This document shows positions 15,813 through 34,730 of a stretch of DNA of 64,000 nt, one piece after another. A model generated the notes under the pieces. The model did not search any database. It saw only the letters and a list, made by a program, of their open reading frames with translations, and was not told the DNA's origin. The position numbers and the translations under genes were made by a program. The stretch's first letter is position 1; the number at the start of each line of letters is the position of its first letter. The stretch comes from a virus: the IMG/VR virus record IMGVR_UViG_3300048924_000191, positions 179,379 through 243,378 of that record; one strand, 5' to 3'.

Positions 15813-16039
15813 TATTCTTCCTCGTCCGGCTCTTCACCGGGTGGTGGTTTCATGGATTCGCGCATCTCTTCAGCCTCGACGCGCTCTTGTTCTTCGACCA
15901 CGTAGATCCGACGGATCTGAGGAACGGTCATACCGTCGAAGTCGCCCTTGTTGGCACGGACCTCGTAGTCTTCCATCGCTTCTGGGTCGAAGTTCTCACC
16001 CATGTCAGCGATTGGGTATTTACTCTCTTTCTTGCTCAT
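15812..16039 (-). CDS. Small acidic protein
   Basis: The 75-residue protein starts MSKKESKYPIADMGENF and ends PPPGEEPDEEE. The C-terminal half is very Glu-rich and helical or disordered. It overlaps the upstream gene by 20 nt. An acidic mimic or adaptor is possible, but nothing specific supports it. Confidence 0.5.
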   Translation of the reverse strand: MSKKESKYPIADMGENFDPEAMEDYEVRANKGDFDGMTVPQIRRIYVVEEQERVEAEEMRESMKPPPGEEPDEEE

Positions 16040-16550
16040 GCTCTTCTCCAAACATCCGCACAGACAGTTGGTATAAATCTTTGGCGGAGTTGATGATTTC
16101 GAAATCGGTTGGTGTGCGCTCAGCCCAGGCACGCTCACAGAAGGTGTAATCGGGACACCCTTCACCGATAACCTTGTAGACGTGCTTCTTGCACAACACC
16201 ATACCGAACCATTTGTAGAGGCGTTTGAAATACGTGACCCTAGTGTATTCCCGAATCTCGTACATCACGCCCATTTGAGGAGTCCACCGCTTAGCGCGGG
16301 TGATCTCCTCTTCGTGACTACCCTCCTTACCGACAATCAATTGGCCGAGTGGAATGGTTTTGATATTCGGCAGTCCGTCACTGTTGATCCCACGGATCAA
16401 TGCCAGGTACGTCCACCGCAATTGGAAGCCAGTGGTGTCAGTGATAGACCCAATGTCGACTTCGCCCCGGTTGTACAAGACTTTGTCGAACGCGATCAGA
16501 ATCTTCTTGTGACCTCCTTTGGAGTCACGACTTTCCTGGAATTGAATCAT
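16020..16550 (-). CDS. Unknown protein
   Basis: The protein has 176 residues. It contains FDKVLYNRGEVDIGSITDTT and a basic, aromatic-rich middle (TRVTYFKRLYKWFGMVLCKK), with Cys at CPDYTFC. The family is not recognised. It sits in a run of coupled minus-strand genes with an 8-nt gap to the next. Confidence 0.5.
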   Translation of the reverse strand: MIQFQESRDSKGGHKKILIAFDKVLYNRGEVDIGSITDTTGFQLRWTYLALIRGINSDGLPNIKTIPLGQLIVGKEGSHEEEITRAKRWTPQMGVMYEIREYTRVTYFKRLYKWFGMVLCKKHVYKVIGEGCPDYTFCERAWAERTPTDFEIINSAKDLYQLSVRMFGEEHEQERE

Positions 16551-32901: not shown

Positions 32902-32961
32902 GGTGTATCTCCAGTGTGATCTGCATGATTAGTGCAGTAATTAGAAAAGTAACGGCATAAA

Positions 32962-32980
32962 GCCCGGCGCTAGGCCGGGC
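32962..32980 (-). terminator. Hairpin between the RNA locus and the 31-33 kb operon
   Basis: The inverted repeat GCCCGGC / GCCGGGC has a 5-nt loop and is flanked by CGGCATAAAG, a variant of the recurring terminator base. It would end transcription from the tRNA locus. Confidence 0.6.
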
Positions 32981-33060
32981 GATATACTTGATAGGTCAGC
33001 GCCCCCGGATTTTCACCGAGACCCTACGTCACCCGCGTACGTGGTTTCTCTCCACTACCT

Positions 33061-33143
33061 CCCAGTACCACGGGAGGGCAGGACTTGAACCTGCGACTTA
33101 CGCTTCGTTTCCGTTGCTCTAAATGTTGAGCTACACGCTGGGA
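33061..33143 (-). ncRNA. Degenerate tRNA-like sequence
   Basis: It has a clear tRNA D-arm (TAGCTC...GAGCA) and T-arm (GCAGG, loop TTCAAGT, CCTGC), but the sequence between them offers no canonical anticodon loop (no U33 in place). Past the T-arm a 6-bp hairpin (CCTCCC/GGGAGG) separates it from the strand that would pair the 5' end (CCCAG/CTGGG). Either a decayed tRNA or a tRNA-like element. Confidence 0.4.
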
Positions 33144-33218
33144 AATTGCTGGCTGTACCGGACTAGTCCCGGTGACCGTCGTGTCTGACCCAGTACCCAG
33201 ATCAGCGGTGCTTCAGAC

Positions 33219-33333
33219 TACCATTGTGGCGGGATTCGAACCCGTATGAGTTCCTCACATCAACGGCACGGATGCCGGAGCCGATCTACAACGGCCATCA
33301 CCAGGTGGAGTTGCACCACCCCCTACAATGGTA
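33219..33333 (-). ncRNA. tRNA-like RNA A (115 nt, extra arms)
   Basis: A perfect 9-bp terminal stem (TACCATTGT / ACAATGGTA) encloses a T-arm (CGGG, loop TTCGAAT, CCCG) at the 3' side. At the 5' side is a second T-arm-like hairpin (GGTGG, loop TGCAACT, CCACC). After that comes GGTGATGGCC, then an arm with an 8-nt loop containing TTGTAGAT, a CGGCA/TGCCG hairpin and a TGAG/CTCA hairpin. It does not fit a standard cloverleaf by hand folding. It shares architecture and the GGTGATGGCC box with tRNA-like RNA B. Confidence 0.4.
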
Positions 33334-33394
33334 ACGCGCGTACCCCAACATTCCAGCCCTTTCACGGCTATCCGGTTTGATAGGATACGAACAA

Positions 33395-33425
33395 GGCCCC
33401 AAGTGGTGGATTCGAACCACCTCAG
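33395..33425 (-). other. Isolated T-arm-like element
   Basis: GGTGG, loop TTCGAAT, CCACC is followed by ACTTGGGGCC. No matching 5' acceptor strand was found within 100 nt, so I could not complete a tRNA here. Confidence 0.35.
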
Positions 33426-33539
33426 AAGGATGAACGACGTTTACCAAAGTTTACGTACAAGCCAGCTGTGCCTGCGTCATGGTAAGCGTATCGAACATCT
33501 ATTCCTGACAACCCATCTGTGACCGAGGGATAAAACAGA

Positions 33540-33649
33540 GCCTAGGGTGGGAGTCGAACCCATATGCCTGAAACTTAAGTGACGTACCGCTGTACGGTAC
33601 GTGCCACCCCGTGGCCATCACCGAGAGGTTTCGAACCTCTCCCCTAGAC
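33540..33649 (-). ncRNA. tRNA-like RNA B (110 nt, extra arms)
   Basis: The terminal stem GTCTAGG / CCTAGGC (one G-U pair) encloses a 5' T-arm-like hairpin (AGAGG, loop TTCGAAA, CCTCT). The same GGTGATGGCC box as in RNA A follows, then a GCCAC/GTGGC hairpin and a perfect 8-bp hairpin ACGTACCG / CGGTACGT. Last are a segment with CTTAAGT and a 3' T-arm (loop TTCGACT). Same layout as RNA A, so the two look like paralogues. Confidence 0.4.
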
Positions 33650-33850
33650 GTAAATCTTACAAAGAGCATAAGGTCAGGCAGTCCGTAGACTGCCGTACCA
33701 AAGGAATAAGGCCGCCTCCAACTGCCGGCACAGAAACCCGTTGGAGGACTTACGCTTGAAGCATCACTGACGTCCCCAGCGATCAAGGAGCCTTCATACG
33801 CTTCAGGCTTATTTGGCTGCGGTGATAGGTTGAGTCTATTCTTCCAGTCA
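33650..33850 (-). other. Hairpin-rich upstream part of the RNA locus
   Basis: It contains GGCAGTC-TACG-GACTGCC (a UNCG-class tetraloop hairpin near 33678-33695), an 8-bp stem CCTCCAAC / GTTGGAGG spanning a 17-nt loop (33715-33747) and AGCCT/AGGCT near 33800. Translated frames across it show only the Ser/Pro/Arg-rich pattern typical of RNA genes, so I see no protein here. The stretch 33851-33985 shows nothing I can name. Confidence 0.4.
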
Positions 33851-33985
33851 CTTGCCCAGCAGGGTACGGCGCTTTGCCTCCGGAGTTATCCTGATAGACC
33901 AAGATAACGACGAATTTTACTTTGTAGCTATGAAGATCCGAGAGGGCGGTGCGCCTAGGGTAGGTGACGCTCGGATCTAAAGAAA

Positions 33986-34061
33986 TGGCTCCACGACCTG
34001 GACTCGAACCAGGGACCTGCGAGTTAACAGCCCGTTGCTCTACCGACTGAGCTATCGTGGA
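33986..34061 (-). tRNA. tRNA-Asn (GTT)
   Basis: A full cloverleaf on the minus strand with encoded CCA: acceptor TCCACGA/TCGTGGA, D-arm TAGCTC...GAGC, anticodon loop CTGTTAA (GTT), T-arm CCTGG/CCAGG with TTCGAGT loop. One mismatch at the base of the anticodon stem. Confidence 0.95.
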
Positions 34062-34068
34062 ATGAAAG

Positions 34069-34145
34069 TGGCGCCGCGTAGGGGACTTGAACCCCTGACC
34101 CCTAGCGTGACAGGCTAGTGCTCTAACCAGCTGAGCTAACGCAGC
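34069..34145 (-). tRNA. tRNA-Asp (GTC)
   Basis: A full cloverleaf on the minus strand with encoded CCA: acceptor GCTGCGT/ACGCGGC (one G-U), D-stem GCTC/GAGC, anticodon stem CTAGC/GCTAG around CTGTCAC (GTC), T-arm AGGGG/CCCCT with TTCAAGT loop. It lies 7 nt upstream of tRNA-Asn. Confidence 0.96.
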
Positions 34146-34391
34146 GATTTGGACATCTTTAGATTCTCGTGAGAGATGGCCAGAACTCACATCTCGCCGG
34201 CAGGCGGAACGCGCAGGGTAAACCTCGCATCGCCTCGCTGGCATCGTCCGAAACCGCGGCCAAGCAGCCCAAATGGCAGCAGCGCGTTTCCGGAAGCCGA
34301 GAACAACCGAACGCAGCCACGAGCAAGTAGGACGTTAGGCAGTTCTCGAACATAAGATACTACCTGATCTGTAACTTTTTACAGGAGTGTC
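34146..34391. other. Intergenic stretch upstream of the tRNAs
   Basis: No convincing gene: a 64-codon minus-strand ORF (34159-34353) has Cys/Arg-rich low-quality sequence. Near 34372 the minus strand reads GTAAAAAGTTAC, a motif also found near 2985 and 14755, possibly the promoter for the tRNA locus. Confidence 0.35.
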
Positions 34392-34730
34392 TTATTTTGC
34401 TCGCCGTGGCATGTTGACCACGACCACTTGTGAACGCTCAGGATGAGCGAACATGTCTTTCGGACAACGTCCGGCGACGGAGTAACCACGCGGATGTTTC
34501 ATGTACACCATCTTCGCAGCCAACAGCTGACGGACCTGGGAAGACTTATTGAGCTTGACGTCGCTCAATGCATTGCAGATGTCTCGCAAGTTAGCGTCGT
34601 TGGTGACGTGCTCTTTGGTGTGATCGAGTCGAAACACAACACGCAGATCGAACTCCTTGCGCAGTGCTGCTTCGAACTTACCGATGGTGCTGACATCGTG
34701 GTTGCTCAAACGATGTACGATTTCCGACAT
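34392..34730 (-). CDS. Unknown protein, paralogue of its upstream neighbour
   Basis: The 112-residue protein's core NHDVSTIGKFEAALRKEF, then LRVVFRLDHTK, then a region with KLNKSSQVRQLLAA aligns by eye with the 146-residue upstream protein (HELKNIGDLETAFHREYGIR; VVIRLHPKTT). Both then have Tyr-x-[KR]-P-x-RG. A tandem duplication is likely. Basic C-terminus. Function unknown. Confidence 0.6.
   Translation of the reverse strand: MSEIVHRLSNHDVSTIGKFEAALRKEFDLRVVFRLDHTKEHVTNDANLRDICNALSDVKLNKSSQVRQLLAAKMVYMKHPRGYSVAGRCPKDMFAHPERSQVVVVNMPRRAK

Follow-up and report, generated by a model that had tools for sequence, protein, structure and literature searches.

In a phage genome we find, downstream of tRNA-Asp and tRNA-Asn, a non-coding minus-strand stretch of ~1 kb (33,985-32,994) that contains several tRNA-like modules, one of which (module D) is very probably a nested pair, i.e. 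a circularly permuted tRNA situated inside an outer tRNA; the anatomy proposed here for the stretch overall is held with the same confidence. tRNA genes with swapped order are common in phage sequences, whereas the open-access papers searched here list them for archaea and algae only. An earlier sequence-only reading of this DNA had reported tRNA-like RNAs next to normal tRNAs, an observation that is confirmed; the nested permuted tRNA and the spread of such genes in phages go beyond it.

The DNA that was analysed, hereafter the window, is a stretch of 64 kb that comprises bases 179,379-243,378 of a 243,378-base viral record. We take its source to be a phiKZ-like jumbo phage on the strength of its RNA polymerase beta-type subunit, which shares 50% identity with the subunit of Pseudomonas phage pPa_SNUABM_DT01 and ~39% with those of phiKZ-type phages. 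The only standard tRNAs called in the window (by ARAGORN and the Rfam models) are tRNA-Asn and tRNA-Asp, both of them fully canonical, as had been noted before (Table 1). The anticodon arm of tRNA-Asn (34018-34035) carries six changes relative to contig G004, a 98% identical relative, with the stem remaining paired, and the region upstream of the tRNAs (34200-34499) is predicted to fold with unusual stability on either strand (z about -3.8). A promoter scan found no sigma-70-type site, and the hairpin that follows the stretch, which has too few T, was not picked up in a terminator scan. Between the end of tRNA-Asn and this hairpin there is no convincing protein gene: a 95-aa ORF (33499-33786) was rejected on account of a one-base deletion in the 98% identical relative, and a 153-aa ORF because it overlaps both tRNAs.

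Table 1. Features of the tRNA cluster and of the adjoining non-coding stretch (positions in the window)
Feature	Positions	Strand	Remarks
tRNA-Asp (GTC)	34069..34145	minus	opens the cluster; canonical, with an encoded CCA
tRNA-Asn (GTT)	33986..34061	minus	canonical, CCA encoded
5' part of the stretch	33653..33985	minus	several hairpins, e.g. ATCGCTG-GGGACGT-CAGTGAT; the relative has ATTACTG, still paired
Module B, tRNA-like	33540..33649	minus	acceptor GTCTAGGG/CCCTAGGC, T-arm TGGG-TTCGACT-CCCA, no CCA
T-arm C	33405..33421	minus	GGTGG-TTCGAAT-CCACC, then ACTTGGGG; convincing acceptor partner absent
Module A, tRNA-like	33219..33333	minus	acceptor TACCATTGT/ACAATGGTA, T-arm CGGG-TTCGAAT-CCCG, no CCA
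Module D, probable outer tRNA	32994..33140	minus	inner tRNA at the position of the anticodon loop; 3' end ACCT
Module D, probable inner circularly permuted tRNA	33035..33103	minus	21/21 stem pairs, 3' half first
Terminator-like hairpin	32957..32982	minus	GCCCGGC-CTAGC-GCCGGGC, then TTTAT; also in relative G001, behind a different gene

The probable nested pair of module D

The inner unit of module D starts with the 3' half of a tRNA, namely the 3' strand of the anticodon stem (GCGTA), AGTC, the T-arm GCAGG-TTCAAGT-CCTGC and the 3' strand of the acceptor (CCTCCCG). After a linker of 6 nt between the acceptor strands (TGGTAC) the 5' half follows, which consists of the acceptor strand TGGGAGG, TA at positions 8-9, the D-arm GTGG-AGAGAAA-CCAC, G26 and the 5' strand of the anticodon stem (TACGC). 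The unit thus has what is expected of a permuted gene, i.e. a 3' half that lies upstream, all four cloverleaf stems and an intervening sequence, and its complete pairing compares with a best value of 18 pairs in 4,000 shuffles of the stretch. When the unit is put in normal order, ARAGORN calls a tRNA-Arg(ACG): the joined loop, AAACGAA, reads Arg(ACG), with an A at position 33.

The outer tRNA is made up of the acceptor CAGCGTG/GGCGCTG, the D-arm GCTC-AACATTTA-GAGC and the T-arm CTCGG-TGAAAAT-CCGGG, and it encloses the inner unit as CAGCGTG-TA-GCTC-AACATTTA-GAGC-A-ACG upstream and CGT-AGGGT-CTCGG-TGAAAAT-CCGGG-GGCGCTG-A-CC downstream. Its pairing amounts to 18 of 21 and was equalled in 1 of 100 shuffles of the flanks. 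The D-loops of both tRNAs are without GG and CCA is not encoded. All eight helices that make up the nest are present in the unconstrained minimum free energy (MFE) structure of the 147 nt (33140-32994), which has -53.1 kcal/mol as compared to -50.3 kcal/mol for the nested structure, with mean pair probabilities of 0.54-1.0. The termini of the inner tRNA run on into the outer tRNA, and the anticodon stems of the two are joined via an internal loop, so that an anticodon loop is absent. The anatomy also bears on two further T-arms, at 33416 and 33089, which had been described as lacking a partner: both are present, but the one at 33089 does have a partner and looked orphan because its tRNA is permuted.

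Modules A and B and the stretch as a whole

In total, the stretch holds four T-arms (T-loops at 33558, 33416, 33240 and 33089), where 0.003 are expected and a maximum of 1 was seen in 4,000 dinucleotide shuffles. Two of these belong to modules A and B, for which the sequence-only reading had it right that they represent minus-strand RNAs of 110-115 nt with closed stems, a genuine 3' T-arm and an additional hairpin at the 5' side. The closing stems that adjoin the T-arm are perfect (9 bp in A, 8 bp in B) and the extra 5' hairpins, GGTGG-TGCAACT-CCACC in A and GAGAGG-TTCGAAA-CCTCTC in B, both have a 7-nt loop. The other arms are GCCG-TTGTAGAT-CGGC, CGGCA-TCCG-TGCCG and a variable-like TGAG-GAA-CTCA in module A, and GCCA-CGGGG-TGGC and ACGTACCG-TACAG-CGGTACGT in module B. 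Neither module has an anticodon loop: A has an arm with a UCCG tetraloop and B one with a 5-nt loop. The box GGTGATGGCC that they share occurs in exactly two copies in the 64 kb, at 49 nt from the T-arm in module A (33293-33302, one position away from where it had been placed before) and at 51 nt in module B (33613-33622, as given before). In short, each of the two modules combines an acceptor stem and a T-arm with arms that are capped and a D-loop-like box that lacks a stem. The pattern GGTGATGGC...T-arm was discarded, as it matches mostly ordinary tRNAs that carry that string in their D-loop. In the case of T-arm C, the search for an acceptor partner returned implausible candidates only.

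Covariance models did not call ordinary tRNAs that had been overlooked. The best score of the Rfam tRNA model (RF00005) is 28.7 bits at 33134-33077, just under the cut-off of 29, and it has no hit in modules A and B; the tRNA-Sec model (RF01852) reaches 22.4 bits in module A (cut-off 47), and ARAGORN calls no tmRNA in the window. The folding stability gives a mixed picture, with z = -3.4 for 33985-33010 and z = -3.6 for module B, and z = +0.1 for module A, which is no better than shuffled sequence.

One explanation of the above is that the whole stretch forms a single large ornate RNA of the GOLLD/ROOL type, of which the tRNA modules are structural parts. It would fit the length and stability of the stretch, its location next to phage tRNAs and the candidate long-range 5'-3' helix by which the MFE structure joins both ends; likewise, GOLLD and ROOL are found in the vicinity of tRNA islands, and there are GOLLD RNAs that contain tRNAs (PMC12286853). 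Nevertheless, the GOLLD and ROOL covariance models are unmatched in the stretch at gathering score and up to E 10, the candidate helix competes with the outer T-arm of module D, and the nested pairs are separate units ending in ACCA in related phages (see below). We consider this explanation unlikely. The more general suggestion of the sequence-only reading, a new structured RNA, is supported, this RNA being made of tRNA-like parts.

The sole homologue of the stretch that we found is in contig G004 (98% identical). Distant blastn searches in named phages yielded short tRNA pieces only, 29 related phage records gave short matches only, and a search with the D-arm pattern returned only G004; in G001, a relative with 64% identity in the RNA polymerase subunit, the tRNA cluster is absent at the corresponding place and only the terminator hairpin is shared. 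With this single, 98% identical homologue there is no covariation inside module D. Between the window and G004, modules A and B together differ at 2 of 219 sites and module D at 0 of 143, as compared to 41 of 727 third codon positions in the four adjacent genes. The divergence is thus lower than that of third codon positions, with p = 0.0014 for A and B and p = 8e-6 when D is included, the former being the safer figure in view of the mosaic genomes and of a tract next to D that G004 shares unchanged.

These figures bear on the idea that the modules are decaying tRNA genes devoid of function. Phage tRNA clusters lose and gain genes, and the failure of the standard models on the modules could be read in the same way. 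Decay would, however, not be expected to leave perfect closing stems and four consensus T-arms, nor does it agree with the low divergence of modules A and B or with the fact that the crosswise-paired nest is found again in other phages, and we hold it to be very unlikely. The absence of anticodon loops bears on a second idea, namely that the modules are decoys for anticodon nucleases of the host. Phages counter such nucleases, and tRNA-like RNAs that adjoin phage tRNAs might serve that end, but modules A and B and the folded module D, in which the two anticodon stems merge, do not present the anticodon loop, which is the site that these nucleases cut. On this anatomy the decoy idea is largely excluded and we give it hardly any credence.

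Permuted and nested tRNAs across phages

A scan of 2.3 Mb for units with 20-21 of 21 pairs and no overlap with a linear tRNA call recovered 40 distinct permuted tRNAs, a count that comes from a pattern-enriched sample and is not a frequency, against 0 in reversed-sequence controls. Permuted readings that overlapped linear tRNA calls were discarded as false positives. To avoid circularity, T-arm-to-D-arm junctions were also picked by T-loop, D-arm string and spacing only, and acceptor pairing was tested afterwards. The 46 orphan junctions, for which neither half is part of a linear tRNA, show on average 6.26 of 7 acceptor pairs versus 3.17 for random partners (39 of the 46 have at least 6 of 7), whereas the 43 junctions between ordinary tandem tRNAs show 3.16 versus 3.12.

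In many of the permuted tRNAs, the 3' half is immediately preceded by what could be an anticodon loop (Pro TGG, Thr TGT, Asn GTT, Gly GCC; Trp CCA with A33). Published genomes are among the sources. Klebsiella phage KP13-16 (OP617741.1) carries two such tRNAs (~15947-16021 and 16251-16318) that are unannotated and missed by ARAGORN, with homologues of one or both in FBKp34, phi1_175008, KP13-26 and KP2025. Within these homologues the acceptor stem shows a single double change, from G-C to A-U; across four Klebsiella homologues 93.5% of cells are paired, and the covariation, with this one double change and too few sequences, is not beyond that of shuffles. By eye, Cronobacter phage LPCS28 (OM638103.1; L300 7960-8100) has a permuted Ser-like tRNA with a long variable arm, ACCA encoded inside the linker and a GGATGC/GCATCC flank helix.

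In many permuted tRNAs the flanks pair into such a helix on which the tRNA is situated, the 5' side bearing a CAGCA motif (L294 4006-4080 and 4310-4377; L298 4065-4136 and 4207-4273; likewise in L078, L191, L244 and L277), and similar elements occur without a tRNA (L298 3870-4015). In tRNAs of normal order, inserts of ~40-55 nt were seen in the region of the anticodon arm (L300 7700-7945 in LPCS28; L297 4370-4483 in Klebsiella phage FBKp34), each of which comprises a hairpin of 5-6 bp and, after it, TATTCAGCA or TTTACAGCA. These short phage tRNA introns are far smaller than group I introns and share a hairpin followed by the CAGCA motif, a putative link to the permuted genes: the CAGCA flank helix apparently corresponds to this insert, with the hairpin loop as the place of opening. 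Two other RNAs were met at such loci, namely a RAGATH-27 Rfam match barely over the cut-off directly upstream of a permuted tRNA (L257 26-107 and 183-251) and a ROOL RNA (323 bits; L227 3148-3722) at a phage locus that also has a permuted tRNA and numerous ordinary ones.

The nested architecture, as judged from complementarity, recurs in sequence that is unrelated to the window. In G013, a distant phiKZ-like phage (L165), three nested pairs lie in tandem (1496-1664, 1931-2074 and 2079-2230), each ending in ACCA, the first with an inner tRNA that is opened at the variable arm. In a further phage contig (L233 7682-7829), inner and outer tRNA of a nested pair each reach 21/21, and G007, likewise a distant phiKZ-like phage (L164, 1520-1368, minus strand), has an apparent single nested pair, judged by eye. 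For L165 and L233 the case rests on complementarity at canonical spacing, because the best fold of RNAfold prefers other pairings and lacks their anticodon stems. Outside any nest, G025 (L172) carries a 41-bit tRNA whose anticodon arm, GGCC-GTA-GGCC, is anticodon-free, and beside the tRNA cluster of G007 there is a candidate ncRNA of ~120 nt (L164 ~1890-1765, minus strand) with CTGTAGGGC/GCCCTACAG closing it and TTTTTAT after its end.

Possible roles and known systems

We propose that the stretch 33,985-32,994 is the non-coding part of the tRNA cluster and supplies tRNA-derived modules that display no anticodon loop; in module D, the anticodon stems of the two tRNAs very probably stand end to end and the tandem halves pair crosswise, the 5' and 3' halves of the outer tRNA flanking the inner unit with its 3' half, linker and 5' half. 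The stretch would be co-transcribed with the tRNAs, as we assume from order and strand. Host enzymes that read the acceptor/T-arm (RNase P, 3' endonucleases) would cut this transcript at the modules; such cutting is probable because these enzymes recognise acceptor/T-arm units, and the ACCA encoded in the G013 nests agrees with tRNA-like processing. The stable products may then act as non-decoding tRNA mimics, which would bind proteins that read the body of a tRNA and not its anticodon. Decoding is unlikely in the window because the anticodon is not displayed and the D-loops of module D are without GG. We favour the mimic over nuclease decoys or decay, and as a complete mechanism, from co-transcription and excision to protein binding, it is a tentative proposal that falls somewhat short of probable.

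A different outcome would be that module D is the precursor of a working tRNA, in a scheme modelled on the maturation of permuted tRNA genes in algae and archaea: the flanks would be cut, the halves ligated at the anticodon loop to give a circular intermediate, the linker opened by RNase P and 3' trimming, and CCA added. The Arg(ACG) call for the reordered inner unit, the ordinary anticodon loops upstream of the 3' half in many permuted tRNAs of other phages and, by reading the sequence, the ACCA in the linker of the LPCS28 tRNA are consistent with it. So is the finding that, of four named isolates searched, three have a T4-type RNA ligase (RtcB was found in none). On the other hand, the D-loops, the A at position 33 and the missing CCA of module D argue against it, and the outer tRNA and modules A and B would be left unaccounted for. 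Neither a T4-type RNA ligase nor RtcB was found in the window's record (possibly incomplete), G013 and G007, and ligase-dependent maturation was rejected for the jumbo phages on these grounds. For module D we regard a working-tRNA precursor as fairly unlikely; where a permuted tRNA has kept its anticodon loop intact, that it matures into a working tRNA is the better guess. A broader scheme, which we consider doubtful, would combine a class of interlocked tRNAs, processed into double-headed mimics that are free of an anticodon, with many phage permuted genes whose halves are joined by a separate mechanism that might be connected with the ~40-55-nt introns.

Circularly permuted tRNA genes are known from red and green algae, the Bigelowiella nucleomorph and Thermofilum pendens (PMC3978253, PMC4033280), and a survey of tRNA gene diversity has permuted genes in archaea and algae and none for bacteria (PMC4033280). 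The window resembles them in that the 3' half comes before the 5' half and an intervening sequence joins the acceptor ends; it differs in its bacteriophage source, in an intervening sequence that is very short (6 nt) and in a permuted unit that probably lies inside another tRNA without a free anticodon loop. The endonuclease that acts on bulge-helix-bulge motifs is not known to occur in bacteria. There is a resemblance between modules A and B and tmRNA, a permuted tRNA-like bacterial RNA with an acceptor and T-arm and no normal anticodon arm, but tmRNA does not contain nested cloverleaves. GOLLD and ROOL (PMC12286853) are large structured ncRNAs beside phage tRNA genes, as is the stretch, which differs in the absence of a covariance-model match and in being built from tRNA modules. 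In phiKZ (AF399011), tRNA-Asp and tRNA-Asn occur in the same order and are 82% identical to those of the window, but a protein gene follows directly downstream and a permuted tRNA is absent in the stretch that was read. A ~100-nt ncRNA of phiKZ was rejected as a counterpart, being the PHIKZ298 3'UTR product (PMC8545117), where a permuted tRNA is absent. A second annotated tRNA-Asn of phiKZ (L020 4690-4836) is preceded by an apparent truncated 5' part of another tRNA.

A search of the open-access literature for permuted tRNAs together with phages returned nothing relevant. The dozens of permuted tRNAs in phage contigs and published Klebsiella phages, missed by a standard finder, suggest that counts of phage tRNAs are too low and that the processing of permuted tRNAs may be within the abilities of phages or their hosts. 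As to the window, its nested form without an anticodon hints that some tRNA-shaped RNAs have a role beyond decoding.
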